Below are positions 6,414 through 64,000 of a stretch of DNA of 64,000 bases, piece by piece. Location of the stretch: contig NZ_JAKRMY010000001.1 of assembly GCF_022346005.1 (NCBI RefSeq), positions 62,001 to 126,000 of the forward strand, given 5' to 3'. Each line of letters begins with the position of its first letter. Position 1 is the stretch's first letter. Under the pieces are notes generated by a model. It worked only from the letters and a program-made list of their open reading frames with translations, did no database searches and was not told the origin of the DNA. A program made the translations under genes and the position numbers. The stretch comes from Corynebacterium sp. ACRPS (GTDB taxonomy: Bacteria; Actinomycetota; Actinomycetes; Mycobacteriales; Mycobacteriaceae).

Positions 6414-6420
6414 ATACAAA

Positions 6421-6426: not shown

Positions 6427-6486
6427 CCCTCCCACCATGTGAGAGGACGATCTTAATATTCGAGACGACGGGGAGCTAAAAAGGCT

Positions 6487-7518: not shown

Positions 7519-7525
7519 GATCCCC

Positions 7526-7531
7526 AATTTA
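7526..7531 (-). promoter_or_regulatory. -10 element upstream of pfkA
   Basis: TAAATT, 7 nt before ATG 7518; consistent with a leaderless mRNA. Confidence 0.45.
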
Positions 7532-7542
7532 GCGCAGGATTT

Positions 7543-8919: not shown

Positions 8920-8926
8920 GGCAGGA

Positions 8927-8932
8927 ATTCTA
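8927..8932 (-). promoter_or_regulatory. -10 element of a leaderless MFS gene transcript
   Basis: TAGAAT, exactly 7 nt before ATG 8919. Confidence 0.5.
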
Positions 8933-8953
8933 GCGGGGCACACAAATCAGGCC

Positions 8954-8959
8954 TAGACT
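8954..8959 (+). promoter_or_regulatory. -10 element of a leaderless transcript
   Basis: TAGACT, exactly 7 nt before ATG 8967; divergent from the MFS promoter. Confidence 0.5.
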
Positions 8960-8966
8960 GGCCACC

Positions 8967-9290
8967 ATGTCCATGATTGATATCAAGAAACCGCAAGACG
9001 TATCCACCGCCACCACCGTTACCCTCGGCCTTATCGGTGGTTGGGTCACCGCCCGCGAGACCGGCATTCGCCCGCTCGGCGGCGTCATCCTCGGCGCAGC
9101 GGGCCTATGGGCCGGCCGTTCTTGGGCCAAGAAGACCAACCCCGCCACGACCGCAGGCCTGTCCGCCCTGTATGTCGGCGCGTTCGGCGCCTCCCACCCA
9201 TTGGCAAAGAAGATTGGTTCCTGGCCAGCAGTCCTCGCCGTGACGGCCGCCTCCGCAGGCGCTGCCTACGCGCTTTCCGATGCCAAGTAG
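8967..9290 (+). CDS. Small conserved membrane protein
   Basis: 107 residues. It has three or four short Ala/Gly-rich hydrophobic segments (roughly residues 18-50, 62-78 and 84-103) separated by basic patches (GRSWAKKTNP, HPLAKKIG), suggesting a small inner-membrane protein. I do not recognise a characterised family. A second in-frame ATG lies at 8973, but the -10 spacing favours 8967. A strong terminator follows. Confidence 0.6.
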   Translation: MSMIDIKKPQDVSTATTVTLGLIGGWVTARETGIRPLGGVILGAAGLWAGRSWAKKTNPATTAGLSALYVGAFGASHPLAKKIGSWPAVLAVTAASAGAAYALSDAK

Positions 9291-9311
9291 TCCACCCCGC
9301 CACATACACAA

Positions 9312-9350
9312 CAGCACCATGGTCCCCCGCCAAGGAGGATCATGGTGCTG
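9312..9350. terminator. Terminator between converging genes
   Basis: Perfect 10-bp stem CAGCACCATG (9312-9321) / CATGGTGCTG (9341-9350), then AATGGTTTTG on the plus strand. It ends the 107-aa gene and may also serve the META-domain gene. Confidence 0.6.
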
Positions 9351-9367
9351 AATGGTTTTGTGAGTAT

Positions 9368-9883
9368 TTACTCCACAACGTTGAAGACAACGGCGTTGTC
9401 CTCAGTGCCCAGTGCGGCCTGGCCGTCAGGCAGAGCATAGAAGGAAGGCTCGGACTCGAGGACGTCACGCAGGGAATCAGAAAGTGCCTGGGTGTGGTCA
9501 TCACACGCCACCTTGGTGGAGACGAAGTCACCTACGTGAATGGTGCCATCCTTATCCACATCGTAGGAGGTGGTGTAGGTATTGCAGCCATCATCGAGAA
9601 CCAGGGACTGATCCTTGTCGAACTGCACGGTGAACTGACCGTCTTCCTTAACGGAGTGCAGCTCACCGGTGATGGTCTGGCCCTCGATGTTGGGCACCAG
9701 CTTGTCAGCGTCTGCCGGCAGGGATTCCACCAGGTCGCTCTTGGCGGTGGTGTCTGCCACCTCGGTGCCGGGCTCAGCCGGTGCCGGGTTTGCTGCGGGT
9801 TCCTCAGCGTTTGCTACGCCCATGGTCATGAGCGCAGCTGCGGAGACGGACATCGTCGCGGTTGCAATCTTTTTCAAAGTCAT
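9368..9883 (-). CDS. Secreted META-domain-like protein
   Basis: 171 residues. A Sec signal peptide is clear: basic MTLKKIA, a hydrophobic Ala/Met-rich core, then GVANAEE with cleavage likely after ANA. A Pro/Ala/Glu-rich linker follows. Residues ~90-171 carry the META (HslJ-like) pattern: CNTY near the start, STKVACDDHTQALSDSL, and a final L-G-x-N-A-V-V-F strand. The two cysteines (in DDGCN and VACDD) could form a disulfide. The role is unknown; META proteins are cell-envelope associated. ATG 9883 rather than 9889 is supported by TAGATT 7 nt upstream. Confidence 0.6.
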   Translation of the reverse strand: MTLKKIATATMSVSAAALMTMGVANAEEPAANPAPAEPGTEVADTTAKSDLVESLPADADKLVPNIEGQTITGELHSVKEDGQFTVQFDKDQSLVLDDGCNTYTTSYDVDKDGTIHVGDFVSTKVACDDHTQALSDSLRDVLESEPSFYALPDGQAALGTEDNAVVFNVVE

Positions 9884-9890
9884 ACCCATT

Positions 9891-9896
9891 AATCTA
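9891..9896 (-). promoter_or_regulatory. -10 element of a leaderless transcript (META-domain gene)
   Basis: TAGATT, 7 nt before ATG 9883. Confidence 0.5.
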
Positions 9897-9987
9897 CCCC
9901 TGCCGGATGGGCATCCAACAGGGGTGTAAACGAATCGTTATCTAATCCGCAGCTATTTCACAGTGACAACGATTTTAGATAGCGCGG

Positions 9988-11475
9988 CTAGCTTTGGCGC
10001 TTAGCTTCATAGGCTGCACCCACCTTGTACAGGCGGTCATCCTGGAAAGCCGGTGCCATGATCTGCAAACCGGTAGGCAAGTTGGTATCGGCGGCCAGGC
10101 CGGAAGGCACGGACATGCCGCACAGGCCGGCCAGGTTTAGCGGCAAGGTGCACAGGTCGAAGTTGTACATCGCCATGGGGTCTTCGGCCTTCTCCCCCAG
10201 CTTGAACGCGGTGGTTGGGGTGGTCGGCGAGACTAGTACGTCAGCCTGCTCAAAGGCGCGGGCAAAGTCCTGGGCCACGAGGGTGCGCACGCGCTGCGCC
10301 TGCAGGTAGTAGGCATCGTAGTAGCCCACGGACAGCGCATACGTGCCCAGCATGATGCGGCGCTTGACCTCGGGGCCGAAGCCCTCTGCGCGCGACTGGG
10401 ACATGACCTGCTCCGCGGAGTGGGATCCGTCATCGCCAGCGCGCAGGCCGTAGCGCATGCCATCGAAGCGGGCCAGGTTGGACGAGACCTCACACGGCAT
10501 GATCAGGTAGTAGGCAGCCAAGGCCTCGTCGAAGTGCGGGCAGTCCACCTCGACGATTTCCGCGCCCTGCTCGCGCAGCTGTTCCACGGCGGCGTGGTAG
10601 TTCTCCATCACGCCGTCCTGCCAGCCATCGCGCTCGAATTGCTTAATGAGGCCTACCTTGACGCCGCTCAGATCACCCTTCGCGCCTTCGCGGGCGGCCT
10701 CCACCACGGGGGCAACAGGCCTGTCCACAGACGTGGCGTCGAAGGCATCGTGGCCGGCAATAACCTCGTGCAAGAGCGCGGTATCCAGGACGGTACGGCC
10801 ACAGGGACCCGCCTGGTCCAGCGAGGACGCGGCTGCAATCAGGCCGTAGCGAGATACCGTGCCGTAGGTGGGCTTTACGCCCACGGTATTGGTCAGCGCC
10901 GACGGCTGGCGAATGGATCCGCCGGTATCGGTACCAATACCTAATGGAGCTTGCCCCGAAGCCAGCGCCGCTGCAGTGCCGCCACCGGAACCGCCCGGGG
11001 TGCGCTCGGTGTCATACGGGTTGTGAACCGGGCCAAATGCGGAGTTCTCATTGGACGAACCCATCGCAAACTCATCCAGGTTCGTCTTGCCAAGGATCGG
11101 GATGCCGGCCTCGCGCAGGCGCTTGGTCACCGTCGCATCATACGGAGACATGTAGCCTTCGAGCATCTTGGATGCGGCGGTAGTGGGGGCATCGGTAGTA
11201 ACCAGCAGGTCTTTTAGAGCCAGCGGCACACCGGCCAGTGCCGATGCGGGCTTTTCGCCGGCGTCGAGGGCCTTATCCACGACATCGGCAGCCGCCAATG
11301 CTTCCTCCTGCCCCACGTGCAGGAAGGAGTTGAGTTCCGGGTTGGTTTCCGCAATGCGATCCAAAAAGGCCTGGGTGACCTCGCGGGAGGTCACCTCGCG
11401 CGCGTGAATCTTGTCCGCCAGCTCGGCGGCGGTCAAAGAGGTCAGCCCCTCCGCAGGTACGACAACGTTGGTCAT
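9988..11475 (-). CDS. gatA: Asp-tRNA(Asn)/Glu-tRNA(Gln) amidotransferase subunit A
   Basis: 495 residues, the usual GatA length. GatA is the amidase that releases ammonia from glutamine for transamidation of mischarged tRNA. The amidase signature is visible: ALKDLLVT (catalytic Lys), [20 protein letters not shown], and the Ser-rich [14 protein letters not shown] leading to [14 protein letters not shown] with the cis-Ser and nucleophilic Ser. The start ATG directly abuts the gatC stop (TAAATG), with the ribosome-binding GGAGG inside the end of gatC, so the two are translationally coupled. Confidence 0.96.
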
Positions 11476-51273: not shown

Positions 51274-51360
51274 TTATTCAGTTTTCGATACCAACACACT
51301 TGGGACATGGGGCTAACCTGCGATATCGGAATCGATCAAGAATTACGCAACATTTGTATG

Positions 51361-51376
51361 CCGTAATTAGATACGG
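51361..51376. promoter_or_regulatory. Short inverted repeat upstream of narK
   Basis: CCGTA-N6-TACGG, 83-98 nt before the narK ATG in AT-rich DNA; a possible operator for a nitrate or oxygen regulator such as ArnR. The identity of the regulator is a guess. Confidence 0.3.
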
Positions 51377-51458
51377 ATTTTACCGTTTTTATTTACCTGT
51401 TCGAGCATAGTCGCCGGTAAATTGAGGAGTCGAACGACCTACTACCTGTGAGGAAATC

Positions 51459-52784
51459 ATGACTGCTCTTGATACCTCAGGCAAAGTCATCCAAGGTTGG
51501 GATCCAGAAGATTCTGACCACTGGGACTCTAAAATTGCCTGGCGCACGCTGTGGATCTCCACATTTGTCCTTATCATTGGCTTTGCCACCTGGTACCTCG
51601 TATCGGCAATTGCCCCACAGTTGAACCAGATCGGTTTCGACTTATCCCGCAGCCAGCTCTACTGGCTGACCGCCATCCCCGGATTGGCCTGCGGTATCTT
51701 CCGCCTCATCTTCATGTTCTTGCCGCCCATCCTGGGCACGCGCAAGCTCGTCTTCAGCTCGTCGCTGCTATTTATCATCCCCATGCTGGGTTGGTTCTTC
51801 GCGGTGCAAGACTCCTCCACCCCATACTGGTGGCTGCTGACCCTCGCCTTCCTCTCCGGCATCGGTGGCGGCGTGTTCTCCGGATTCATGCCCTCGACCG
51901 GTTACTTCTTCCCCAAACGCCTGTCCGGTACCGCGCTGGGTATCCAGGCCGGCATCGGTAACTTCGGTATCTCCTTTATCCAGCTGGTCGCCCCATGGCT
52001 CATGGGCTTTACCCTGCTGGGCGTGGGCTTTGTCGCCCCGCAGCGCACCGATGACGGCGAAATCTTTGTCCACAACCCCGCCATCTTCCTGGTGCCGTGG
52101 GCCATCGTCGGCGCATTCCTCGCGTGGACCCTGCTCAAGGACGTTCCCGTGAAGGCGAATTTCCGCCAACAGATGGACATCTTTGGCAATAAGAACACCT
52201 GGATTCTTACCGTCGTCTACTTCATGACCTTTGGCGCATTTTCCGGCTTCGCGGCGCAAACCGCGCTGCTTATTAACCAGATTTTCGGCGAAGGCTCCGA
52301 ATTTGCCGGCACCTACGATAACCTCCCTGCCGGCGCGAGCTACGCCTTCCTGGGACCACTCATCGGCGCGCTCGTCCGCGCGCTGTGGGGCCCGCTGTGC
52401 GATAAGTTCGGCGGCGCCATCTGGACCTTCATTGGCTGCCTGGGCATGACCATCTTTACCGTCGTGGCCACCTTCTTCCTCACCCCGGACGAGCCGGATG
52501 AGGTCTGGTGGTTCCTGGGCACCATGCTCATTTTCTTCTTCTTCACTGGCCTGGGCAATGCCGGCACGTTTAAGCAGATGCCCATGATTTTGCCCAAGCG
52601 CCAAGCAGGCGGTGTCATCGGTTGGACCGGTGCCATCGGCGCCTTCGGCCCGTTTGTCGCGGGTGTCTTGCTCTCCATGATGTCTGCACCGACGTTCTTC
52701 TGGGGCTGCGCCGTCTACTTCGCCATCACCACCGTGCTGGTGTGGATCTACTACGCCCGCCCCAACGCCCCTTTCCCCGGATAA
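51459..52784 (+). CDS. narK: Nitrate/nitrite transporter
   Basis: 441 residues, 12 transmembrane helices, MFS fold. Nitrate/nitrite-porter motifs: RLIFMFLPPILGTRK in loop 2-3 and the first glycine-rich signature GIGGGVFSGFMPSTGYFFPK; the second lies in FTGLGNAGTFKQMPMILPKR. It brings nitrate in and exports nitrite for NarGHI. It has a Shine-Dalgarno (GTGAGGAAATC) and begins the narKGHJI operon, 19 nt before narG. Confidence 0.95.
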   Translation: MTALDTSGKVIQGWDPEDSDHWDSKIAWRTLWISTFVLIIGFATWYLVSAIAPQLNQIGFDLSRSQLYWLTAIPGLACGIFRLIFMFLPPILGTRKLVFSSSLLFIIPMLGWFFAVQDSSTPYWWLLTLAFLSGIGGGVFSGFMPSTGYFFPKRLSGTALGIQAGIGNFGISFIQLVAPWLMGFTLLGVGFVAPQRTDDGEIFVHNPAIFLVPWAIVGAFLAWTLLKDVPVKANFRQQMDIFGNKNTWILTVVYFMTFGAFSGFAAQTALLINQIFGEGSEFAGTYDNLPAGASYAFLGPLIGALVRALWGPLCDKFGGAIWTFIGCLGMTIFTVVATFFLTPDEPDEVWWFLGTMLIFFFFTGLGNAGTFKQMPMILPKRQAGGVIGWTGAIGAFGPFVAGVLLSMMSAPTFFWGCAVYFAITTVLVWIYYARPNAPFPG

Positions 52785-52803
52785 TTAGGAGCTTTCATTC
52801 CCC

Positions 52804-55800
52804 ATGACTGCATACTTCGCGCCCGAAAAAGGCAACTCAAATCCACTCTTTAAGCTCGGTGCCTACCTGCGCAAAGGCGAAGCTACCGATTCTGGTCAGC
52901 AGCTTTTCTTAAAGGGCGGCCGCCAGGCAGACGTCTTCTACCGCAACCGCTGGGCCTTCGACAAGATGGTGCGCTCCACCCACGGCGTGAACTGCACCGG
53001 TTCATGCTCGTGGAAGGTTTACGTCAAAGACGGCGTCATCACCTGGGAGTCCCAGGCGGTGGATTACCCCACCACCGGCAATGACATGCCGGAATACGAG
53101 CCCCGCGGCTGCCCGCGCGGCGCCTCCTTTTCCTGGTACACCTACTCTCCTACCCGCGTGCGCTACCCGTATGCCCGCGGCGTGCTGGTGGATATGTTCC
53201 GCGAGGAAAAGGCAAAGCACGGCGATTCCGTCCTGGCATGGCGCGCCATCCAGGAGGACCCAGAAAAGCGCAAGGCGTATATCTCCCAGCGCGGCAAGGG
53301 CGGGCTTATCCGCATCTCTTATGAAGAGGCCATCGATATCGCCTCGGCCGCGCACGTCTACACCATCCGCAAGTACGGGCCGGACCGCATCAACGGCTTT
53401 ACCGTGATCCCGGCCATGTCCCAGATCTCCTATGGCGCGGGCATGCGCTTCCTGCAGACCATCGGCGGCGTCGCGCTCTCCTTCTACGACTGGTACGCCG
53501 ACCTGCCCCCGGCATCGCCGCAGACCTTCGGCGACCAGACCGACGTCCCCGAATCCGGCGACTGGTACAACTCTTCCTACCTCATGATGTGGGGCTCGAA
53601 TATCCCGGTCACCCGTACCCCGGACGCCCACTTCATGGTGGAATCGCGCTACAAGGGCACCAAGGTCGTCGTGGTCTCGCCCGACTTTGCCGATAACACC
53701 AAGTTCGCCGATGAGTGGGCTCGCATCGAGCCGGGCACGGATGCCGCCCTCGCCTTTGCCATGGGCCACGTGATCTTGAAGACCTTCCACGTAGACCGCC
53801 AGGAACCGTACTTCCTGAACTACATGCGCAAATACACCGACTCACCCTTCCTGGTATCCCTGGAAGACCGCGGCGACGGCACCTACACCCCGGGCAAGTT
53901 CCTCACCGCCTCGCAGCTTGCCGATGCCACCTTGAATTCCTCCCCCAACGCCACCCACCGTGGCCTGGTGATGGAGGAAGACGGGTGCATCGTTGACCCA
54001 GGCGGCACCGTGGCAGACCGCTGGGATAACGAAAGCGCCAAGTGGAACCTGGCGCTAGATAACGCCGATCCGGTCATGTCCATCGCAGAAACCGATAGCT
54101 TTGATACCGCCGAGGTGCTCTTCCCGCGCTTCGACCTGGATACCAACCCAGAGGACGTGGGAACCGATAAGCCCATTGGCGCGGGCATCGTCCACCGCGG
54201 CGTGCCAGTCCGCGAGGTCGACGGCAAGCTGGTTACCACCGTCTTCGACATCATGCTCGCCCACTACGGCGTCAACCGCGAGGATCTCCACCTGCCGGGT
54301 AGCTGGCCGAAGGACTTCCACGATTCCAGCGAAGTCGGCACCCCCGCCTGGCAGGAAGAGCTCACAGGCGTGGCCGCCGATACCGCTATCCGCATCGGCC
54401 GCGAATTCGCGCAAAACGCCGCGGATTCTAAGGGCCGTTCGCAGATCATCATGGGCGCTGGCGTCAACCACTACTTCCACGCCGATAATATCTACCGCAC
54501 CTTCTTGGCACTGACCTCCATGTGCGGTACCCAGGGCGTCAATGGCGGCGGTTGGGCGCACTACGTGGGCCAGGAAAAACTTCGCCCGATCAACGGCTGG
54601 ACCCAGTGGGCCATGGCCGCCGACTGGCAGCGCCCGCCGCGCCACATGATTTCCACCGGCTTCTACTACTTCGCCACCGAGCAGTATCGCTACGATAATT
54701 CGCGCGCCTCCCACTTGGGATCGCCGCTTGCTAGCCACGGTTCCATTGGGGACAAGATGGTCTCCGATACCATGGCAGAATCCATGCGCCGTGGCTGGAT
54801 GCCGGCCTACCCGCAGTTCAACCGCAACTCCCTCTTCCTTGCCGATGAAGCCGATGAGGCCGGCATGGACATCAACGACTACGTGGTCCAAGAGCTAGAA
54901 AACGGCCGCCTGGAATTCTCCTATGACAACCCGTCTGCCGAGGAGAACTGGCCGCGCATCCTGCTCAACTGGCGCACCAACCTGCTCGGCTCGTCCGCCA
55001 AGGGCACCGAGTTCTTCCTGCGCCACCTGCTGGGCATCGACTCGGACGCCACCGCGGAAGAACTAGCCCCCGAAGACCGCCCACGCAGCATTAAGTGGGT
55101 GGATGAGGCACCGGAGGGCAAGTTGGATCTGATGATGACCACGGACTTCCGCAATACCTCCACCACGCTGGTCTCGGATCTCATCTTCCCGGCCGCTACC
55201 TGGTACGAAAAGCACGATATGTCCTCTACCGACATGCACCCGTACCTGCACTCGTTTAACGCGGCGATTAACCCGCCGTGGGAGGCACGCTCGGACTATG
55301 AGGTCTTCCGGGACCTGGCCGCGGCACTCTCTGATAAAGCCACCAAGTGGCTTGGCGTGCAACGCGATGTCATTACCCAGCCGAGCCACCACGACAGCCC
55401 AGACGAGCTCGGCATGCCCAATGGCATCGTCCCCGACCCCGAAGAACAGGGCCTTATCCCTGGGGTCACGATGCCGAAGCTGCATGTGGTCGAGCGCGAT
55501 TACACCAAGGTCTACGAAAAGTGGGCCCACCTGGGCCCGCTTCCCGCCAAGGCCGGCACCGGCGTGCACGGCACCAAGTTCAACGTGGAAAAGCAGGTCA
55601 AAGAGCTCGAGCTTATCTGTGGCACCACGGAGACCTCGATGGGCGAGCTGGTGGACCTATCCAAGGACACCAAGGTCATCGACGCCATCCTGCACCTTTC
55701 CGGTGTCTCCAACGGCGAGCTAGCCAAGCAAGGCTTTGAGTTCCTATCCTCGCGCACCGGCAAGGATCTCACCCCGCTGGGCGCTCCCGATGAAGACGTA

Positions 55801-56541
55801 CGCATCACGTGGGACGACATCAAGGAACGCCCGAAGGAGGTCATCACCTCCCCGGAGTGGACCGCCGATAAGCGCAATAAGCGCCGCTACACCGCCTTTT
55901 CCATCAACGTCGAGTTCGACAAGCCCTGGCACACGCTGACCGGCCGTATGCAGTACTACATCGACCACGACTGGTTCATGGACTACGGCGAAGCGCTGCC
56001 GATCTTCCGCCCACCGCTCGACCACGTCCACATGCACGGCGAATTCGCGCCGGGCACGGAATTGACCAATGACCGGGGCGAGGCCGAGGTCACCCTGCGT
56101 TACTTGACCACGCACAATAAGTGGTCCATCCATTCGCAGTACTTTGACAACCTGCACGTGCTCTCCATCTCGCGCGGTGGCCAGGTGGTCTGGATGTCCA
56201 ATAAGGACGCCGAGAAAATCGGCGTGACGGACAATGACTGGGTCGAGGTATATAACCGCAACGGCGTCGTCTCCGCCCGCGCCATTGTTTCCCACCGCAT
56301 TCCGGAGGGAACCATGCTGTGCAACCACGCACAGGAGCGCACCGTGGGCACACCTATCAACGAGCACACCGGCCGCCGCGGCGGCACGCACAACTCGCTG
56401 ACCCGCATTTCCATCAAACCGGTGCACATCGCTGGCGGCTATGGCCAGCTGACCTACCACTTCAACTACATCGGCCCTACCGGTAATAACCGCGATGAAG
56501 TCACCCGCGTTCGCCGCCGTTCCCAGGAGGTATCCTACTAA
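52804..56541 (+). CDS. narG: Respiratory nitrate reductase alpha subunit
   Basis: 1245 residues. Cytoplasm-facing catalytic subunit with bis-MGD and an FS0 [4Fe-4S] cluster; it reduces nitrate to nitrite. His60-x3-Cys64-x3-Cys68-x34-Cys103 is the FS0 ligand set of NarG. NSSYLMMWGSNIPVTRTPDAHF and the ending PTGNNRDEVTRVRR belong to the family. No twin-arginine leader is seen; the sequence begins directly before the mature domain, as in cytoplasmic Nar. Its stop overlaps the narH start by 1 nt. Confidence 0.97.
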   Translation: MTAYFAPEKGNSNPLFKLGAYLRKGEATDSGQQLFLKGGRQADVFYRNRWAFDKMVRSTHGVNCTGSCSWKVYVKDGVITWESQAVDYPTTGNDMPEYEPRGCPRGASFSWYTYSPTRVRYPYARGVLVDMFREEKAKHGDSVLAWRAIQEDPEKRKAYISQRGKGGLIRISYEEAIDIASAAHVYTIRKYGPDRINGFTVIPAMSQISYGAGMRFLQTIGGVALSFYDWYADLPPASPQTFGDQTDVPESGDWYNSSYLMMWGSNIPVTRTPDAHFMVESRYKGTKVVVVSPDFADNTKFADEWARIEPGTDAALAFAMGHVILKTFHVDRQEPYFLNYMRKYTDSPFLVSLEDRGDGTYTPGKFLTASQLADATLNSSPNATHRGLVMEEDGCIVDPGGTVADRWDNESAKWNLALDNADPVMSIAETDSFDTAEVLFPRFDLDTNPEDVGTDKPIGAGIVHRGVPVREVDGKLVTTVFDIMLAHYGVNREDLHLPGSWPKDFHDSSEVGTPAWQEELTGVAADTAIRIGREFAQNAADSKGRSQIIMGAGVNHYFHADNIYRTFLALTSMCGTQGVNGGGWAHYVGQEKLRPINGWTQWAMAADWQRPPRHMISTGFYYFATEQYRYDNSRASHLGSPLASHGSIGDKMVSDTMAESMRRGWMPAYPQFNRNSLFLADEADEAGMDINDYVVQELENGRLEFSYDNPSAEENWPRILLNWRTNLLGSSAKGTEFFLRHLLGIDSDATAEELAPEDRPRSIKWVDEAPEGKLDLMMTTDFRNTSTTLVSDLIFPAATWYEKHDMSSTDMHPYLHSFNAAINPPWEARSDYEVFRDLAAALSDKATKWLGVQRDVITQPSHHDSPDELGMPNGIVPDPEEQGLIPGVTMPKLHVVERDYTKVYEKWAHLGPLPAKAGTGVHGTKFNVEKQVKELELICGTTETSMGELVDLSKDTKVIDAILHLSGVSNGELAKQGFEFLSSRTGKDLTPLGAPDEDVRITWDDIKERPKEVITSPEWTADKRNKRRYTAFSINVEFDKPWHTLTGRMQYYIDHDWFMDYGEALPIFRPPLDHVHMHGEFAPGTELTNDRGEAEVTLRYLTTHNKWSIHSQYFDNLHVLSISRGGQVVWMSNKDAEKIGVTDNDWVEVYNRNGVVSARAIVSHRIPEGTMLCNHAQERTVGTPINEHTGRRGGTHNSLTRISIKPVHIAGGYGQLTYHFNYIGPTGNNRDEVTRVRRRSQEVSY

Positions 56542-58133
56542 TGAAAGTCATGGCCCAAATCTCCATGATCATGAACTTGGACAAGTGCATTGGCTGCCAC
56601 ACCTGTTCAGTTACCTGTAAACAGGCATGGACCAACCGCGAAGGCACCGAGTACATCTGGTTCAATAACGTCGAAACCCGCCCCGGCCTCGGCTACCCGC
56701 GCACCTGGGAAGACCAGGAAAAGTGGAAGGGCGGCTGGGAGCGCACGGCGTCCGGCAAGATCAAGCCCAAGGCCGGCGGGCGCCTCAAGAAACTGGCTAC
56801 CCTCTTCCACAACCCCAACCTGCCCACCATCCAGGATTACTACGAGCCCTGGACCTACCAGTACGAGGACCTGATGGGCGCCGAGGCGGGCCAGAAGACC
56901 CAGCCGACCGCCAAGCCGGTCTCCCAGATCGACGGACGGGACATCGGCAAGATTGAATGGTCCTCCAACTGGGACGATAACCTGGGTGGCTCTACTGCCA
57001 CGCTTGACGATGACCCCGTTCTCCACAACATGAACCTCGAGGTCAAGAAGGAAATCGAGGACTCGTTCATGTTCTACCTGCCGCGCATTTGCGAGCACTG
57101 CATGAACCCGACCTGCGTATCCTCCTGCCCCTCCGGTGCGATGTACAAGCGCACCGAAGACGGCATCGTCTTGGTGGACCAGGACCGCTGCCGCGGCTGG
57201 CGCATGTGCGTATCCGGTTGCCCGTATAAGAAGGTCTACTTCAACCACAAGACCGGTAAGGCCGAAAAGTGCACGCTGTGCTACCCGCGCCTCGAGGTGG
57301 GCCAGCCCACGGTGTGCTCCGAGACCTGCGTGGGCCGCCTACGCTACTTGGGCGTTATCCTCTACGATGCCGACCGCGTCGCCGAGGCCGCCTCCACCGA
57401 GAATGAGCAGGACCTTTTCGAGGCACAAAAGTCGATCATGCTCGACCCCCACGACCCAGAGGTAGTCCGCGCGGCCCAGGCGGAGGGCATCCCGCACTCC
57501 TGGATCGATGCCGCGCAGCAGTCGCCGATCTACGACCTCATCTTCAAGTACGGCGTCGCTCTGCCGCTCCACCCGGAGTACCGCACGCTGCCGATGGTCT
57601 GGTACATCCCGCCGCTGTCGCCCATCGTTGACAAGGTGACCGCAACCGGCAACGACGGTGAGGACCACAAGATCCTTTTCTCGGCGCTATCGAATATGCG
57701 CATTCCGCTGGAATACTTGGCGGGCCTATTTACCGCCGGCGATACCGTCCCGGTGGAAAAGTCGCTGCGCCGGCTCGTCGCCATGCGTTCGTATATGCGC
57801 GATATCAACCTGGGCAACGAGCCGCAGGAGGAAATCGCCCAGGCAGTCGGCATGACGGGCAGGGATATGGAAGGCATGTACCGCCTGTTGTCCATCGCTA
57901 AATACGATGACCGCTACGTTATCCCCACCGCCTCGCCGGAATCCCCGCGCGGCATTACCGATTTGGATCCGTTCGGCGATGTGGACCCGGCCAAGGCCTC
58001 CGAGGACGTCTTCCACGACCTTGGCATGGGCGCGCCCGAAGCTTGCACCCACGGCGCCGAACCGCAAGGTAAGGTCTCGCTGCTCTCCTGGAGCGGCGAC
58101 CGCCCCGATGCCATGTTCCCGCCGCGGAAGTAG
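56541..58133 (+). CDS. narH: Respiratory nitrate reductase beta subunit
   Basis: 530 residues. Electron-transfer subunit with four Fe-S clusters: CIGCHTCSVTC (residues 16-26), CEHCMNPTCVSSCPSG, CRGWRMCVSGCP (the Trp replaces a Cys, marking the [3Fe-4S] cluster), and CTLCYPRLEVGQPTVCSETC. It passes electrons from NarI hemes to NarG. Confidence 0.97.
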   Translation: MKVMAQISMIMNLDKCIGCHTCSVTCKQAWTNREGTEYIWFNNVETRPGLGYPRTWEDQEKWKGGWERTASGKIKPKAGGRLKKLATLFHNPNLPTIQDYYEPWTYQYEDLMGAEAGQKTQPTAKPVSQIDGRDIGKIEWSSNWDDNLGGSTATLDDDPVLHNMNLEVKKEIEDSFMFYLPRICEHCMNPTCVSSCPSGAMYKRTEDGIVLVDQDRCRGWRMCVSGCPYKKVYFNHKTGKAEKCTLCYPRLEVGQPTVCSETCVGRLRYLGVILYDADRVAEAASTENEQDLFEAQKSIMLDPHDPEVVRAAQAEGIPHSWIDAAQQSPIYDLIFKYGVALPLHPEYRTLPMVWYIPPLSPIVDKVTATGNDGEDHKILFSALSNMRIPLEYLAGLFTAGDTVPVEKSLRRLVAMRSYMRDINLGNEPQEEIAQAVGMTGRDMEGMYRLLSIAKYDDRYVIPTASPESPRGITDLDPFGDVDPAKASEDVFHDLGMGAPEACTHGAEPQGKVSLLSWSGDRPDAMFPPRK

Positions 58134-58140
58134 GTTAGCC

Positions 58141-58968
58141 GTGAATATCTTCGATAAACTCCGCAAGCGCCAGGAATCCCTGCAGCGGCAATCTGCCCCG
58201 CAGGGTGCCGATGCCCCCGTGGCCGGGTTCGGAACTCCCGCCGGCATCGGTTCCATGGGCGGTGCCAAGGACGTCGAAAAGACGCTGCGCACCCACACCG
58301 GTCAAGTCCCGCGCGAATTCGTCACGCCTGTCGAGGTCACCGAAGACCAGCGGCGGATAGTCGCCATGGCCGTGTCCGTGCTGCTTAATTACCCAGGCGA
58401 AGACATCTTTGACCGCCTCTCCGTGGTCGAAGACCAGGTAGATGACCTGCCGCTGGCCATTGCCACCGACTTCATCAACTTCGCCGAATGGGCCCGCAGT
58501 ATCGGCCCGCGCGGCTTGGAAGAGCACTACGTCGAGACCTTTGATCAACGCCGCCGCTGCGCGCTGTACCTGTCCTACTTCGCCGTCGGCGATACCCGCC
58601 AGCGCGGAATGGCCATCTTGTCCTTCCGCCAGCAATTGGAATCGCTCGGCTTCGAAATTTCGGATGAAGAACTACCCGATCACCTCTGCGTCGTCCTCGA
58701 AGCCCTCGCCATGAGCGAGGGGGACACGCACGAGCGCGCCGTCGAATTGGTAGCCAGCTACCGCGAGGGAATCGAGGTGCTGCGCGCGGCCCTCGCCCAC
58801 GAGCGCTCGCCGTACGTCAGCTTGATCGTGGCGCTGTGCAAGGCCCTTCCAGAAGTCGATTCTGATACCGCGCAAAAGTACGTCGATCTCATCCGCACCG
58901 GCCCACCCGCCGAGATGGTCGGCATTGCAGACCTTCCCTTCCCCACTACCCAACCAGACCTCGTCTAG
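58141..58968 (+). CDS. narJ: Nitrate reductase molybdenum cofactor assembly chaperone
   Basis: 275 residues from GTG 58141, 7 nt after narH. Chaperone that binds apo-NarG and assists cofactor insertion; not part of the mature enzyme. All-helical: VAMAVSVLLNYPGEDIFDRL, YVETFDQRRRCALYLSYFAVGDTRQRGMAIL and LPDHLCVVLEAL are typical NarJ stretches. The N-terminal ~65 residues are a Gln/Pro/Gly-rich extension not found in E. coli NarJ. Confidence 0.93.
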   Translation: MNIFDKLRKRQESLQRQSAPQGADAPVAGFGTPAGIGSMGGAKDVEKTLRTHTGQVPREFVTPVEVTEDQRRIVAMAVSVLLNYPGEDIFDRLSVVEDQVDDLPLAIATDFINFAEWARSIGPRGLEEHYVETFDQRRRCALYLSYFAVGDTRQRGMAILSFRQQLESLGFEISDEELPDHLCVVLEALAMSEGDTHERAVELVASYREGIEVLRAALAHERSPYVSLIVALCKALPEVDSDTAQKYVDLIRTGPPAEMVGIADLPFPTTQPDLV

Positions 58969-58978
58969 GAGCCACATC

Positions 58979-59758
58979 ATGTTTGATAACTTCCTCTGGG
59001 GTGCCTTCCCGTGGTTAGCCATCGCGGCATTCTTCGTGGGCATCTTCTGGCGGTGGCGATCCGACCAATTCGGCTGGACCACCCACTCCTCCCAAATCTA
59101 TGAATCCAAGCTGCTGCGTTTATCCTCGCCGCTCTTCCACTGGGGCATGGTTTTCGTGGTCATCGGCCACCTGATGGGCTTGGCATTCCCCAAGTCCTGG
59201 ACCCAGGCCGTTGGCATCAGCGACCACGCCTACCACCTCCTGGCCACCATCCCCGGCTCCATCGCCGCACTGGCGGTCCTGCTGGGCTTTGCCGGATTGC
59301 TGTACCGCAGGCTAAAGAACCGCTCCGTATTCTTGTCCACCTCCACCTCGGACAAGGTCATGTACGCGCTGCTCGGCCTCGCGCTGGTATCGGGCTCGTT
59401 TGCCACCTTTACCCTGCAGCTTTTTGACCTCGCTGGCACCGGCGGATACGACTACCGCGAGACCATTTCCCCATGGCTGCGCCAGCTGTTGATTTTCAAC
59501 ATTCAGCCCGACCTCATGGCCAGCGCCCCGTGGCAATTTAAGGTCCACGTCCTCTGCGGTTTCACCATCATCGCAGTATGGCCCTTTACCCGCCTCGTCC
59601 ACGCATTCTCGGCACCGGTTGGCTACGTCACCCGCCCCTACGTGGTGTACCGCTCCCGCGATGAACGCACCACCCCGATGCGCTCCAATACCGCGTGGGA
59701 GCCTATCCGCTCCAACCGGAAGCAATTGGAGGGAGAAACCCCTGGCCACGGTGCCTAG
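58979..59758 (+). CDS. narI: Respiratory nitrate reductase gamma subunit
   Basis: 259 residues. Five-helix membrane cytochrome b that oxidises quinol and holds two hemes. N-terminus FLWGAFPWLAIAAFFVGIFWRWR; heme-ligand candidates are His in HWGMVFVVIGHLMGLAFP (helix 2) and in FKVHVLCGFTIIAVWPFTRLVHAFSAP (helix 5). GAGCC precedes the ATG and the gap to narJ is 10 nt. A terminator follows. Confidence 0.95.
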   Translation: MFDNFLWGAFPWLAIAAFFVGIFWRWRSDQFGWTTHSSQIYESKLLRLSSPLFHWGMVFVVIGHLMGLAFPKSWTQAVGISDHAYHLLATIPGSIAALAVLLGFAGLLYRRLKNRSVFLSTSTSDKVMYALLGLALVSGSFATFTLQLFDLAGTGGYDYRETISPWLRQLLIFNIQPDLMASAPWQFKVHVLCGFTIIAVWPFTRLVHAFSAPVGYVTRPYVVYRSRDERTTPMRSNTAWEPIRSNRKQLEGETPGHGA

Positions 59759-60161: not shown

Positions 60162-61544
60162 TTATTCGGTGACGACGAACTTGCCGTGCTGTCCCTTTTC
60201 CGCGTTAGTCATGATGTGGTTGACAAAGGAATACGTTCCAGGCTCGTTGAAGGTCATCTCCACGAACCCGCCTTGTGCGGGGAGCAGGTCGAGGGCTTGC
60301 GAACCGGTCTTATCCTCGTCCTTGATGAGGTAAGCACCTTCCTTATAGGCAGTATCGAATTGCTCGCCCACCACGTGGAAGCTAAGCGGCTGATCGGGGC
60401 CCACGTTCAGGATCCACAACCGGACGGTATCGCCCACCTTGGCCTTGATGGGGTCGACGTCGTACTGGCTGGGGTAGTAATTAAAGGCCATGAGGTCGAA
60501 GTCGCCATCGGCCACGCGCTGGGCGTCGGCGCCGGTCTTTTCCTCACCGAGGAATACATCGTTGGCGATGAAGTTGTACTCGGCATCTACGTCCTTGAGA
60601 TCTGGTGGATCGATGATGACGTTACCGGCCATGCCGTTGGCGATGTGCAGGGACATCGGGGCGGTTGAGCAGTGATACATCCAAATGCCGGAGCGATTCG
60701 CGGTGAATTCGTAGGTTAGTTCTTCCCCGGGCTGGATGGACTTCATGTTTTCATCCGGGTTGACCTCACCGGCGTGGAAGTCGATGGAATGGGCCATGCT
60801 GCCCTCGTTCTTGATGGTGATCTTGAACTTATCGCCCACCTTGCCGCGCAGCGTCGGCCCTGGCGCCTGGCCATTAAAAAGCCATTGCATCTGCTTAACT
60901 CCTGGGGCTACCTCAACGATTTCCTCGGTCATCGACCAGGTTTCTTCGTGCGTGGTGGTATTAGCCGCCGGCGCCAGGGAGGCGTCATAGGCGCTAAAAC
61001 CTTCGCGGGAGGCACCGAGTTCGGCGGCGCTCGGAACATCAACGTGCGGGTTGGATGCCCCTGCCACGGCGTGGTGGTGATCGTGCCCGCCGGTGCTTGG
61101 CGCGGAATCGTCCACGTTGACGTCAAAGGTCATACCTTGCAGGCGGTGACCGGCAATGGTGCAGTAGCCTTCGATGCTGGATTCGATGACACCGGCATCG
61201 AGCTGCACGGTATCGCCGGGATCGACGCGGCCGGTTTCGGCATCACCAATCTTTAGATCGTGGACTTGGTCCCCGGTATTGGTGAAGTTAACCACCAAGT
61301 GGGTGCCGGGATCGATATCAACGTGGTTGGGGACGAAGGCCATACCATCGACTTCTACGTCAATGGTGTGGGTTTCACCTTCGGCAACAGAGCCCGCCGG
61401 TTGAGAGTCCTTAGAGATGGTATTGACTAGGGCGAGCGCGATCACCGCGGCCAGCGCGATACCGATAAGTAACCACGAGGCCCATTGGGAGTTACCGGAC
61501 TCCGGCGGCTTATCCTGTGGCTGTGGGGAAGAAACACTAAGCAT
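60162..61544 (-). CDS. nirK: Membrane-anchored copper nitrite reductase with extra cupredoxin domain
   Basis: 460 residues. It should reduce nitrite to NO outside the membrane. Residues ~22-42 form a transmembrane anchor. An N-terminal cupredoxin (~55-145) has a full type-1 copper set: His95, Cys128, His133, Met138. After a His-rich linker (HDHHH, 154-158) comes the two-cupredoxin NirK core: type-1 ligands His252, Cys292, His300, Met305; type-2 ligands His257, His291, His443; catalytic Asp255 and His390. All positions expected of NirK are kept. The start abuts the upstream stop (TAAATG), so it is coupled to the membrane-protein gene. Annotation as a generic multicopper oxidase is the alternative. 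Confidence 0.88.
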   Translation of the reverse strand: MLSVSSPQPQDKPPESGNSQWASWLLIGIALAAVIALALVNTISKDSQPAGSVAEGETHTIDVEVDGMAFVPNHVDIDPGTHLVVNFTNTGDQVHDLKIGDAETGRVDPGDTVQLDAGVIESSIEGYCTIAGHRLQGMTFDVNVDDSAPSTGGHDHHHAVAGASNPHVDVPSAAELGASREGFSAYDASLAPAANTTTHEETWSMTEEIVEVAPGVKQMQWLFNGQAPGPTLRGKVGDKFKITIKNEGSMAHSIDFHAGEVNPDENMKSIQPGEELTYEFTANRSGIWMYHCSTAPMSLHIANGMAGNVIIDPPDLKDVDAEYNFIANDVFLGEEKTGADAQRVADGDFDLMAFNYYPSQYDVDPIKAKVGDTVRLWILNVGPDQPLSFHVVGEQFDTAYKEGAYLIKDEDKTGSQALDLLPAQGGFVEMTFNEPGTYSFVNHIMTNAEKGQHGKFVVTE

Positions 61545-62744
61545 TTAATTCTCCAGATTCTGTTGTTGGTAGACGGCGCGTCCCACGGCAAGCACGTTTA
61601 ATGCTAAGCCTATCCCCATGAGGATAAGCCCAGCAGAAAGGGCGTTGACAAGGCTCAGCAGGGCGCCGAGGTTGATGAGGACGAGTCGGGCAAAACCGGC
61701 GCGGTCCGCGGTATCCCGGCCGTGGTGCACCTTGGCAGGACCGCCTCCCACCAGCGTGGGCAAGAGATGGTGCAAGACGCCGGTGACCAGCTGCAAAATG
61801 CCGCCGCCGATGAAGGCCGGAACCACAAACAGCGTGATGACGCGCGGGTAAGCGCCGAGCGCTGCGGCGACGGCATCGCCGGCGCACAGGGCCACCATCC
61901 ACAGCAGTCCTGCGATAACGGATACCGATGCTGTGGTGAGCCGGGGGTTGCACCCCAGCACAGTGGCCAGTACCGGTTGGATGATCATAATTGCAGCTAG
62001 CACGACAAGCAGCTGGGCGATGCCCGCCGCGCGCGTCCACCCCACCGCGCCACAGACCATGGTCAGTATTAGCCCGGTGCAGTGGACGATGAGCCCGCGT
62101 GTGCACCGCATCCGCGCGGTGGGCGAAATCGCGGTATTAGACAAGGTGGGAAGCAGCGTCACGATGGTGCCCACGATGGTCAGCCACGCAAACCCCCAGA
62201 CCATGCCGCGCGAGTGCGCTGCCACTAGGAAGGAATAGTTACCCACGCCATTGCCGCTTAAGATCACGAGCACCACGGAGGCGATCATGAAGATGGATGC
62301 GGCCGCATAAAACGGCACCGTCACCGCAAAGGATCCGGAAAGCGAGCCGCGCAAACGCGTATAGGTGAATACGAGCTGCCAGGCAAGGGCGGCGATGATG
62401 AGGAGGGAGGCGGCATCGGCAAGCAGGCCCCAGTCATAGCCCGCGCGATCGATCATGAGCAGGATGAGGCCCACCTGGATGAGCGCCACGCGCGCGCCCA
62501 CGCCGCGGTAACCATTATTGGCGGTGCGGGTGAGCGCCTCGGTGAAATGGGTGGAAAATACGATGATGGCGGTGGTCAGCGCGCCAATGGTCAGCGGGTG
62601 GATGAGTTCCCACCACACCACGGGGGCGCCCAGGTGGCCCGCCACGTTGATGCCGATGCCGATGAGTACCCACGCGCCGATAAGCGCGGCGGTAAGGATA
62701 TGCCAGCGGCTGCGGGCGGCCAGGGAGATGTCATTAATGCGCAC
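61545..62744 (-). CDS. Polytopic membrane protein linked to nirK
   Basis: 399 residues, about 12 hydrophobic helices. It resembles the N-terminal membrane module that in some actinobacteria is fused to a multicopper oxidase/nitrite reductase. Two related blocks occur: HSRGMVWGFAWLTIVGTIVTLLPT (~170-200) and GILQLVTGVLHHLLPTLVGGG (~315-335), with conserved His that could bind heme or copper. A role in passing electrons from quinol to NirK, or in its assembly, is inference from context. Starts at GTG 62744 with AAGGAGG, overlapping the upstream stop by 11 nt. Confidence 0.7.
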   Translation of the reverse strand: MRINDISLAARSRWHILTAALIGAWVLIGIGINVAGHLGAPVVWWELIHPLTIGALTTAIIVFSTHFTEALTRTANNGYRGVGARVALIQVGLILLMIDRAGYDWGLLADAASLLIIAALAWQLVFTYTRLRGSLSGSFAVTVPFYAAASIFMIASVVLVILSGNGVGNYSFLVAAHSRGMVWGFAWLTIVGTIVTLLPTLSNTAISPTARMRCTRGLIVHCTGLILTMVCGAVGWTRAAGIAQLLVVLAAIMIIQPVLATVLGCNPRLTTASVSVIAGLLWMVALCAGDAVAAALGAYPRVITLFVVPAFIGGGILQLVTGVLHHLLPTLVGGGPAKVHHGRDTADRAGFARLVLINLGALLSLVNALSAGLILMGIGLALNVLAVGRAVYQQQNLEN

Positions 62745-63810
62745 GGTGGGCCTCCTTCACCGTCAACGTAATGCCGCAGGCGAGGAATACCAAGACGGCG
62801 GCGATGGTGGTCAGGCCACCTACCTGGTAGGCAACGGTGTGGCGGGCGACATCGGCAAGAATGCGCAGCGCCAGCCCGCCGTGCAGGACCGCTACGGGGA
62901 GAAAAAGCACCGGATGGTAGGGCAAGTGGCGGCGGATGACGGAGGTAATGATGATGGGGGCATGGGCAAAAATCATGGACATGACAAAGCCTAAAAAGAT
63001 GGCGTGCACCGAGGCGTCGTAGGCAAAGCCCGAGCTTTCGCCATAAAGCAGCCAGAAATATCCGCCCAGGGCCAGCCAAAAATACCCGGCGAGCATGCAG
63101 GCTGCGGAATAGCGCGGCAGCCCGCGCGAGCGCACTAGGTTCTTCGCCACATCCACGCGCACGGTAGAAACCGCAACGCCGATAAGCGCCGCACCCATCG
63201 CGCGGTAGCCCACGGCCGGGGAAAGGATATAGACCACGCTGAGCGCCGCCAACCCCAAAACCCACAGGGTAATGCGCTTTTCCGCCTGGGTGCCGGCCAT
63301 GGTGATGCGGGCAAGCTCCATGCGCTCGCCGATGATCGTCGCTACCACGTAGAGCACGCACAGCGGCATCGCCGTAGAAAAGGCCGGCTCCATGGCCCAC
63401 AGCAGTGCCGCTGCTACCCCACCGATGACGCCGGTGGCCTGCACAATGATGGGCAGGGCCGGCTGGCGCCGGTGGATGGTGGCATAGATCAACCCCAGCA
63501 CGATGAAGCCGGCGGCGAAGCACAAGGCCGGGACCTGCCGCGGTAAGCCTGCCACGATGCCCACGAAACCGGCTACGTGGAAGATGGGTCCTGCCCAGGC
63601 CCACCGCGTGCGCACGGCGACGGCGCGCTCTAGCCCAATGGCGCCGCCGACAAAGCCAAAGACCATCAGCGGGCCGTGATCGGCGGCGACGGAGGCTGCC
63701 GACGAAAATCCCACGCCGAGCAGGGATGCCCCGGCGGCGAGCCCAACCAGCAAGGACAGCCCCGCGCAGGCAAGGAAGAAGAAGCGGTGCGCGAGCCTAT
63801 TATTTATCAC
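62734..63810 (-). CDS. NnrS-like membrane protein
   Basis: 358 residues from GTG 63810, about 12 hydrophobic helices. Conserved NnrS-type features include HGPLMVFGFVGGAIGLERAVA near residue 45 and HAIFLGFVMSMIFAHAPIIITSVI near 280, with histidines likely to bind heme or metal. NnrS proteins are tied to nitric oxide resistance in denitrifiers. The frame extends to 63972, but TACGAT lies exactly 7 nt before the GTG at 63810, so a leaderless start there is likely. It leads the nnrS-like / membrane protein / nirK operon. Confidence 0.75.
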   Translation of the reverse strand: MINNRLAHRFFFLACAGLSLLVGLAAGASLLGVGFSSAASVAADHGPLMVFGFVGGAIGLERAVAVRTRWAWAGPIFHVAGFVGIVAGLPRQVPALCFAAGFIVLGLIYATIHRRQPALPIIVQATGVIGGVAAALLWAMEPAFSTAMPLCVLYVVATIIGERMELARITMAGTQAEKRITLWVLGLAALSVVYILSPAVGYRAMGAALIGVAVSTVRVDVAKNLVRSRGLPRYSAACMLAGYFWLALGGYFWLLYGESSGFAYDASVHAIFLGFVMSMIFAHAPIIITSVIRRHLPYHPVLFLPVAVLHGGLALRILADVARHTVAYQVGGLTTIAAVLVFLACGITLTVKEAHRAH

Positions 63811-63817
63811 GGCTTTA

Positions 63818-63823
63818 ATCGTA
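63818..63823 (-). promoter_or_regulatory. -10 element of the nnrS-like/nirK operon
   Basis: TACGAT, 7 nt before GTG 63810. The 70-nt gap to the divergent DUF2249 gene must hold both promoters. Confidence 0.5.
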
Positions 63824-63880
63824 CTAATATTGGTGGCAAGGTAAAACCCTCGCCCCACCTCCGAAAGGATGATCCTCGCC

Positions 63881-64000
63881 ATGGAACTTCCCATCACCGA
63901 TTCCTCCCAGCAGAACTCCATCCCCACGCTCAACGCCACCGAAATCCCCCACGCCGTGCGCCACGGCGCCATCCACGGCGCTTTGGGTACGCTGAACGTG
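63881..64000 (+). CDS. DUF2249 domain protein, N-terminal part
   Basis: Only the first 40 codons are in the window. After a short polar leader (MELPITDSSQQNS) comes LNATEIPHAVRHGAIHGALGTLNV, the start of the DUF2249 pattern (L-x-x-x-x-[IL]-P-x-x-x-R-H-x-x-I-x-x-x-x-x-x-L). DUF2249 proteins commonly neighbour NO and nitrite metabolism genes. GAAAGGA lies 12 nt upstream of ATG 63881; an in-frame ATG at 63869 directly abuts that site and is less likely. Confidence 0.6.
   Translation, partial: MELPITDSSQQNSIPTLNATEIPHAVRHGAIHGALGTLNV

Follow-up and report, generated by a model that had tools for sequence, protein, structure and literature searches.

Background

Copper nitrite reductases (NirK) with an additional cupredoxin domain at the N-terminus have been published, as have actinobacterial NirK proteins of about 900 aa that are fused to a membrane domain of 400 aa (PMC4770552, PMC5338063). 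Reported examples of the long form are those of Propionibacterium acnes (about 900 aa) and Corynebacterium pseudotuberculosis (882 aa), and for the latter species Nar, NirK, and the NO reductase qNOR have been proposed to constitute an incomplete denitrification pathway (PMC4770552, PMC5338063). Thirteen transmembrane (TM) helices were reported in the fused C. pseudotuberculosis protein (PMC5338063), which is the number expected from twelve helices plus one anchor. In its account of these proteins a survey from 2016 listed the membrane domain as having no known function and the role of the N-terminal cupredoxin as unknown (PMC4770552).

The DNA examined here, referred to as the window, was a stretch of 64,000 nucleotides from Corynebacterium sp. 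ACRPS (GCF_022346005.1, NZ_JAKRMY010000001.1, positions 62,001 to 126,000). In this locus the counterparts of the membrane domain and of NirK were encoded by two separate genes, and modeling of the former gave an identity for the membrane domain of the long NirK proteins that is new: it is predicted to fold like subunit I of the heme-copper oxidases. In the open-licence literature no paper was found that joined NnrS to AlphaFold or to the heme-copper oxidase superfamily, and the oxidase fold may be in print elsewhere.

Organization of the operon

Three coupled genes on the minus strand, adjoining narKGHJI, encoded an NnrS-like protein, a membrane protein of 399 aa, and NirK, which confirmed the arrangement described in the original prediction. 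On that strand the junction between the 399-aa gene and nirK read TAAATG, and the NnrS-like gene overlapped the 399-aa gene by 11 nt (GTGCGCATTAA). The features, in coordinates of the window, were as follows.

51459..52784, plus strand: narK, MFS nitrate/nitrite transporter; best family TIGR00886, under the cut-off
52804..56541, plus strand: narG; TIGR01580 1484.7, cut-off 1084.15
56541..58133, plus strand: narH; TIGR01660 759.4, cut-off 524.05
58210..58968, plus strand: narJ, start unsettled; TIGR00684 99.9, cut-off 59.35
58979..59758, plus strand: narI; TIGR00351 183.3, cut-off 105.55, scanned from 58988
60162..61544, minus strand: nirK, 460 aa; TM helix at about 25-43, cupredoxin with type-1 site, then two-domain NirK core
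61545..62744, minus strand: 399-aa membrane protein, GTG start; predicted heme-copper oxidase subunit I fold, invariant H49 (TM2) and H177 (TM6)
62734..63810, minus strand: NnrS-like 12-TM protein, 358 aa from GTG 63810 (382 aa if from ATG 63882); predicted heme-copper oxidase subunit I fold
63818..63823, minus strand: TACGAT hexamer, 7 nt before the GTG; putative -10 element of a leaderless promoter
63881..64000, plus strand: start of a divergent DUF2249 gene; PF10006 70.6 bits, 86 aa, continuing beyond the window edge (L003 7882-8142)

A leaderless GTG start at 63810 is likelier for the NnrS-like gene than the first ATG at 63882, because that ATG overlapped the ATG of the divergent DUF2249 gene and because the TACGAT hexamer was kept in all 13 of the upstream regions read. 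Residues 1-28 of the longer form were the sole stretch of its model with pLDDT below 50.

The copper nitrite reductase

NirK had been predicted to keep every copper ligand, to carry an extra N-terminal type-1 site, and to have a TM anchor, all of which was borne out. The ligands of the core were H252/C292/H300/M305 (type-1) and H257/H291/H443 (type-2), accompanied by D255 and H390, and the N-terminal cupredoxin had a type-1 site of its own (H95/C128/H133/M138). In an alignment of 53 rows, 52 kept all 13 of these ligand or catalytic positions; with the window sequence, which was present twice, counted once, this is 51 of 52 distinct sequences. A filter at 95% identity left 36 rows. The alignment took in matches that started ahead of residue 60 and extended beyond residue 440, with shorter ones excluded. 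The best hydrophobic 19-mer began at residue 25 (mean 2.62), and this anchor and the first cupredoxin were arranged like oxidase subunit II.

The closest PDB sequences were Geobacillus NirKs (E 1.2e-43, residues 173-460), indicating a two-domain core like that of solved NirKs, and the best 34 of the 60 entries listed were NirKs bar one labelled multicopper oxidase type 1. Pfam multicopper oxidase domains also matched, and the score against the NCBIfam equivalog model TIGR02376 was below its cut-off (137.6 versus 296.3). Judged by its sequence, the protein should be a membrane-tethered NirK that reduces nitrite to NO.

The 399-aa membrane protein

Structure prediction, proposed earlier as a check on the pair of NirK and the membrane protein and done here with AlphaFold for single membrane proteins, gave a confident model (pLDDT 94.7) of oxidase type. 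Foldseek returned 23 matches at E <= 0.001, all of them oxidases or NORs (best E 3.8e-6). In comparisons with VIA, where unrelated helical models typically score about 14, the model reached Z 33.5 (3.1 A over 378 residues) against cbb3 CcoN (3mk7_D) and Z 30.3 against NorB (4xyd_A), and oxidases or NORs filled all of the 50 rows shown. The assignment of a heme-copper oxidase subunit I fold with 12 TM helices is well supported by this model.

Kinship to oxidases was not detected at the sequence level. The family profile (A3) had 0 matches in the PDB at E <= 10, hhalign in global mode gave no alignment to FixN, NorB, or qNOR, and the score of a profile alignment to the same three was equal to the shuffled level. 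A weak ungapped helix scan placed TM6 of the family on the HxH helix TM10 of FixN, NorB, and qNOR (z 5.1, 4.1, and 4.4), with an unrelated pairing also at z 5.1, and did not place TM2 on oxidase TM2.

Of the six canonical oxidase histidines (TM2, TM6, two in TM7, two in TM10), only H49 in TM2 and H177 in TM6 were invariant, in 50/50 rows of A3 and 29/29 phylum-wide rows, and neither TM7 nor TM10 had a conserved histidine in this family. Because most of the canonical histidines are missing, the protein is classed by its fold and not as an oxidase or NOR. Lysine and arginine averaged 17.9 inside and 3.6 outside across the family, consistent with an N-in/C-in topology, which puts H49 and H177 in the outer half of the membrane and allows the NirK anchor to carry its cupredoxin outside. 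These two histidines might serve as ligands of one b-type heme, which is a guess. The ACRPS genome also had a second copy of the family, adjoining msrA- and sodA-like genes (named by eye).

The NnrS-like protein

NnrS holds heme and copper in the membrane. The model of the NnrS-like protein (pLDDT 82.9) aligned by VIA to cbb3 CcoN over 351 residues at 3.6 A (Z 28.5), and Foldseek alone was weak (best E 3.7e-3). On this model the protein, too, is assigned the heme-copper oxidase subunit I fold. Its family profile (A4) had 0 PDB matches at E <= 10, and hhalign of A3 against A4 gave a probability of 2.8, so close kinship of the two families was not detected by sequence. In the 11-row alignment H293 and H307 (TM10) and H334 (TM11) were present in 11/11 rows and H69 (TM2) in 10/11, with one gap; none of the invariant positions in TM7 was a histidine, and the six canonical oxidase histidines were not all found.

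The label NnrS-like rests on a match to PF05940 of 15.9 bits, below the gathering cut-off of 28, with 3/11 members of the family matching at E <= 0.01, which weakens the label. The 399-aa protein scored 19.7-20.1 bits against the same model, and 6/50 members of its family matched at E <= 0.01. The idea that both membrane proteins are bona fide NnrS was dropped on these values.

Nitrate reductase and other nitrogen oxide genes

NarG, NarH, NarJ, and NarI exceeded their NCBIfam cut-offs; NarK scored below that of TIGR00886 (244.3 versus 311.7), yet this was its best family. Together with NirK, narKGHJI supports the potential for the predicted nitrate-to-NO branch in the ACRPS genome. The adjacency of nar and nirK seen here is not general, as 40 of the 85 NirK-bearing Corynebacterium genomes had no NarG match at E <= 1e-50. 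Among the 86 NirK genes found in the genus, 28 had narG at a distance of 3.3-7.8 kb, and every one of these 28 was unfused.

The statement in the original prediction that no NO reductase is visible proved true of the window only. Contig C44 of the same genome encoded a qNOR in one chain of 854 aa, in which an N-terminal cytochrome c-like domain (PF22085, 186.8 bits, cut-off 29) was joined to a NorB-type catalytic domain (PF00115/COX1, 168.7 bits, cut-off 34.8). A qNOR match was absent from 70 of the 85 NirK genomes of the genus. With a flavohaemoglobin model only the reductase half was matched in the ACRPS genome (64.1 bits, model 177-396, cut-off 432). N2O reduction was dropped from consideration, as the Sec-type NosZ model found only the cupredoxin part of NirK, at 20 bits.

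Distribution and gene fusion

The 399-aa family was found in 84 of the 85 NirK-bearing Corynebacterium genomes and in 46 of the 116 others (Fisher p 1.6e-21; these are related species and not independent). Membrane domain, anchor, cupredoxin, and NirK were encoded as a single ORF at eight loci of the genus (L037-L042, L044, and L045) and at others elsewhere in the class (L145-L149 and L152), which supports the earlier suggestion: the polytopic protein corresponds to the membrane portion that other actinobacteria carry in one chain with NirK. The sole exception among the 85, G066, had NirK and the NnrS-like gene and no member of the 399-aa family.

Members of the family also occurred in the absence of NirK, some by themselves and some accompanied by one cupredoxin. 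In three genomes (G087, G192, and G193) the companions were the NnrS-like gene and one lone cupredoxin, with no NirK domains, and at two loci (L098 and L100) the family was found with a lone cupredoxin near a flavohaemoglobin. Outside the class there was no NirK in reach at 17 of the 30 fetched loci, and no shared theme among the neighbors, read by eye, of these distant members.

A possible route of electrons to nitrite

One of the two oxidase-fold proteins probably hands electrons to NirK. For the fuller proposal, a membrane-bound copper nitrite reductase complex in which electrons from menaquinol would travel by way of one heme in an oxidase-like scaffold to the cupredoxin and from there to NirK, the chances appear about even. 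The 399-aa protein would be a subunit I fold that has lost most ligands of the oxygen- or NO-reducing site, with H49 and H177 holding a single b-type heme near the outer face, and the NirK anchor and first cupredoxin would stand in for the cupredoxin subunit II of oxidases. Menaquinol would be oxidized at the 399-aa protein, and the electron would pass through two type-1 coppers, that of the first cupredoxin and next that of the NirK core, before reaching the type-2 copper, where nitrite would be reduced to NO outside the membrane. NarGHI and NarK may supply the nitrite, which relatives that lack Nar may take from their surroundings; the ACRPS qNOR could convert the NO to N2O, and the NnrS-like protein probably binds or handles NO. 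The earlier idea that a polytopic protein and an anchored cupredoxin replace soluble donors is strengthened because the former has a subunit I fold; that the electrons come from quinol we continue to infer. A more specific version, which we hold tentatively and with some doubt, is a menaquinol:nitrite oxidoreductase in one complex, with subunit I as a one-heme menaquinol oxidase without the oxygen/NO site and subunit II as a cupredoxin extended by NirK, in split and fused forms across the actinobacteria and with the NnrS-like oxidase-fold protein alongside.

Several observations count against the feeding of electrons by the 399-aa protein: G066 has NirK without it, the family is found without NirK in some genomes, and it has no sequence-level match to oxidases. 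The absence of qNOR from most NirK genomes and the score of NirK under TIGR02376 were also counted against the proposal, as was the report that the N-terminal copper of Hyphomicrobium NirK is dispensable and lies at too great a distance from the core to pass electrons to it (PMC4770552). NirK might instead be fed from elsewhere, for example from a cytochrome bcc-aa3 branch, with both oxidase-fold proteins serving in NO binding, sensing, or detoxification as proposed for NnrS. The gene content of G066, the weak resemblance of both proteins to PF05940, and the loci that pair the 399-aa family with a lone cupredoxin, with or without the NnrS-like gene or near flavohaemoglobin, favor this explanation, but the many species with a NirK fusion and the co-occurrence in 84/85 genomes point to a role in the NirK reaction itself and the PF05940 matches are under the cut-off, so that we regard it as rather unlikely.

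NORs have their non-heme-iron and heme ligands in TM7 and TM10. That the oxidase-fold protein still reduces NO, and that it and NirK take nitrite to N2O in one complex, would fit the similarity to NorB and the many NirK genomes without qNOR, but conserved histidines are missing from both of these helices in the 399-aa family, whereas HH and HxH motifs were present in the FixN and NorB ORFs of one locus (L133); we give this very little credence. Assignment of the copper protein to multicopper oxidases or copper resistance, with the membrane proteins in a copper pathway, is one of the outcomes that the original prediction had named as its refutation. The Pfam multicopper oxidase matches and the second copy beside msrA- and sodA-like genes agree with it, but it is disfavored by the PDB neighbors of the copper protein, by the presence of all NirK type-2 ligands with the Asp and His, and by the adjoining nar genes, and seems highly improbable. 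A role for the oxidase-fold proteins in loading or protecting copper sites, with no electron carriage, is improbable to a lesser degree: the 399-aa family keeps two histidines and no full heme set, and in the loci read the genes were always membrane proteins beside cupredoxins, but nothing specific to copper transport was found, and a single-chain fusion would be unusual for a loading factor.

The pairing of a subunit I fold with an anchored, subunit-II-like cupredoxin gives the two parts a joint, testable role, and it would explain how NirK is supplied with electrons where a classical periplasm is lacking. A further suggestion is that proteins of the oxidase fold have been put to uses besides O2 or NO reduction. 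Carriers include Corynebacterium of human skin and airways, so the locus bears on a possible source of NO on body surfaces.

Comparison with known systems

The NirK of Hyphomicrobium denitrificans (PDB 2dv6) has three cupredoxin domains, as does that of ACRPS, and the NirK cores align. Unlike the ACRPS protein it is soluble and is not known to have a membrane partner. The NirK lipoprotein of Bacillus azotoformans is likewise held at the membrane of a Gram-positive species, with menaquinol as the suspected donor; as described in the source it has a lipid anchor, lacks the cupredoxin, and has no known membrane partner (PMC3475470), while the ACRPS NirK has a TM anchor and a cupredoxin. NnrS (PF05940) shares with the NnrS-like protein 12 TM helices, a context of NO and denitrification, and a weak profile match, but the latter is under the curated cut-off.

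The subunit I fold of cbb3 CcoN and cNOR NorB is predicted for both ACRPS membrane proteins over nearly their full length; in contrast to CcoN and NorB, the 399-aa family lacks conserved TM7 and TM10 histidines, and the cupredoxin subunit bears a type-1 site and NirK. An oxidase-type subunit I with a cupredoxin-type subunit II also occurs in nitrogen oxide metabolism in eNOR and sNOR, which are described as reducing NO in subunit I (PMC8756737), whereas in ACRPS the catalyst would be NirK on subunit II, with the subunit I site lost. The long actinobacterial NirKs have the same order of membrane domain, cupredoxin, and NirK core with the copper ligands kept, and their published accounts assign neither a fold nor a function to the membrane domain (PMC4770552, PMC5338063); in ACRPS the membrane domain and NirK are instead encoded by two coupled genes, whose lineage is deeply separate, in an operon led by an NnrS-like gene.

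The nirK operon and the rest of the genome

The nirK operon consists of three genes in head-to-tail order, the first two of which overlap by 11 nt, while the second meets nirK at a TAAATG junction. The features of this region are:

51350-51400, 5' of narK: inverted repeat CCGTA-ATTAGA-TACGG, spotted by eye, a possible operator
51459-59758, strand opposite to the nirK operon: narKGHJI
60162-63882, minus strand: NnrS-like membrane protein, 399-aa membrane protein, NirK
63810-63823: TACGAT seven bases 5' of the GTG of the NnrS-like gene

In NirK, an anchor precedes a cupredoxin that carries a type-1 site of its own, and the two-domain NirK core follows. Every one of the nine core residues named in the original prediction was found in this core, and all 13 ligand positions, including those of the cupredoxin site, were kept in 51 of 52 distinct relatives. 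The closest named NirKs were those of Corynebacterium sp. KPL1814 (99%), MSK130 (98%), and C. macginleyi (94%). The TACGAT before the GTG was conserved in all 13 upstream regions compared (the window and 12 related loci), so transcription of the NnrS-like gene probably begins at that GTG and yields a leaderless mRNA. Upstream of the operon, in divergent orientation, were a DUF2249 gene and an ABC transporter called molybdate-type from its binding-protein match and gene order.

The earlier statement that no NO reductase was visible does not hold for the 2.40 Mb Corynebacterium genome as a whole, since an 854-aa ORF with both qNOR domains was found outside the window on contig C44. The genome could therefore, in principle, run nitrate through nitrite and NO as far as N2O. 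Neither a Sec-type NosZ nor a full flavohaemoglobin was found when this genome was searched for them.

Predicted folds and conserved residues

Modelled from a 50-row alignment (pLDDT 94.7), the 399-aa protein matched heme-copper oxidase subunit I almost from end to end (Foldseek E 3.8e-6), with VIA Z scores of 33.5 to CcoN (378 residues, 3.1 A) and 30.3 to NorB. The NnrS-like model (11-row alignment, pLDDT 82.9) was matched to the same fold by VIA (Z 28.5, 351 residues, 3.6 A), Foldseek alone being weak, with a best E of 3.7e-3 and no match at 0.001. For both proteins, the best 50 VIA rows listed were oxidases or NORs throughout, and both obeyed the positive-inside rule with the N terminus inside. 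By sequence, profiles of the two proteins matched nothing in the PDB (E ≤ 10).

The only invariant histidines of the 399-aa family were H49 (TM2) and H177 (TM6), present in 50 of 50 aligned sequences and 29 of 29 in a phylum-wide set; Q318 was present in 48 of 50 and 28 of 29. No histidine was conserved in TM7 or TM10 in either set, which indicates that the family lacks the binuclear site found in oxidases and NORs. The NnrS-like family kept H69 (TM2), H293 and H307 (TM10), and H334. The low-spin heme of oxidases is held at TM2 and TM10, making such a heme plausible in the NnrS-like protein as well.

Modules and lineages of the 399-aa family

The membrane domain was found in four settings: as a separate gene ahead of NirK, in a single ORF with anchor, cupredoxin and NirK, accompanied by one cupredoxin only, and standing alone. 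A quick tree of 59 members placed the window protein within 14 unfused members (SH-aLRT 97), deeply separated from the fused lineage, which argues that the two-gene form is no recent break of a fused gene.

In three genomes (G087, G192, and G193) the NnrS-like gene and the 399-aa-type gene formed an operon with a lone cupredoxin and without NirK domains, and G007 had a similar operon, judged by position; those of G007, G087, and G193 were 2.3-2.8 kb from narG. Across the phylum, the family occurred in 40 of 296 genomes. Among 30 fetched phylum loci, NirK-type sequence was in the same ORF or nearby in 13 (12 at ≤ 1.5 kb, one more using longer flanks) and absent in 17.

The ACRPS genome has a second, lone copy (G000:C46:116172-117368; 9167-10465 of locus L091), near sodA- and msrA-like genes, whose counterpart in other species is a fusion with a single cupredoxin. 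At loci L098 and L100 a lone cupredoxin lay tail to tail with a 399-aa-type gene, with a flavohaemoglobin gene alongside, and at L104, L107, and L110 two family members faced one another, separated in L107 by a cupredoxin. Locus L043 (G045:C1:1029000-1046000) held, at 5640-9353, a second three-gene operon of the same make-up. In its NirK-like protein 11 of the 13 ligand positions were gone, as were the TM2 and TM10 histidines of its NnrS-like protein, while its 399-aa-type protein kept both of its own histidines; could this be a metal-free copy of the complex?

Distribution in Corynebacterium

Of 201 genomes of the genus, 85 had NirK, 70 NarG (E ≤ 1e-50), 18 qNOR, and 40 the NnrS-like gene, which lay at ≤ 3 kb from NirK in 35 of its 40 genomes. 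Co-occurrence is given below; the species are related, so the p values overstate the evidence.

Co-occurrence of NirK with NarG (E ≤ 1e-50) and qNOR in 201 genomes; p values overstate the evidence because species are related
Partner; both; NirK only; partner only; neither; p
NarG; 45; 40; 25; 91; 5.6e-6
qNOR; 15; 70; 3; 113; 2.8e-4

Twenty-eight of the 86 NirK genes were of the fused kind (frames ≥ 830 aa), and another 28, each one unfused, had narG at 3.3-7.8 kb. The C. tuberculostearicum group (G004, G005, G052, G074, G093, G109, and G199) had the operon and no narG match, so NirK there would depend on external nitrite. All NirK genomes but one (84 of 85) had the 399-aa family, as did 46 of the 116 genomes without NirK. 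In the sole exception, G066, NirK directly followed the NnrS-like gene (locus L049) in a genome without any member of the family, a natural test of whether the 399-aa protein is needed.

Proposed electron path and comparison with known systems

Corynebacteria use menaquinol and are not known to have a soluble cytochrome c; a membrane donor is therefore needed. The simplest reading is an outward flow in which electrons would leave the membrane through a putative heme in the 399-aa protein, pass to the cupredoxin, and then enter NirK. The strongest facts against this path are that G066 has NirK without the 399-aa protein, that the family also exists without NirK, and that in Hyphomicrobium NirK the N-terminal copper was reported to be dispensable (PMC4770552).

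Some of this architecture is already in print: PMC4770552 describes a fused NirK of ~900 aa whose 400-aa membrane domain has no known function, and an extra cupredoxin in all the actinobacterial NirKs studied there. C. pseudotuberculosis NirK is given as 882 aa with 13 predicted TM helices, in an incomplete pathway with qNOR (PMC5338063), and N2O is the end product in Intrasporangium calvum, also an actinobacterium, which combines NarG and NirK with qNOR (PMC6349771). No paper on an oxidase fold for the membrane domain or NnrS was found in the open-licence literature, and this predicted fold is the one real structural surprise over published forms of NirK. An oxidase with its subunit II and the nirK operon would be alike in plan, each having an anchored cupredoxin beside a subunit-I fold, but unlike that of subunit II, the cupredoxin here bears a type-1 site and NirK.
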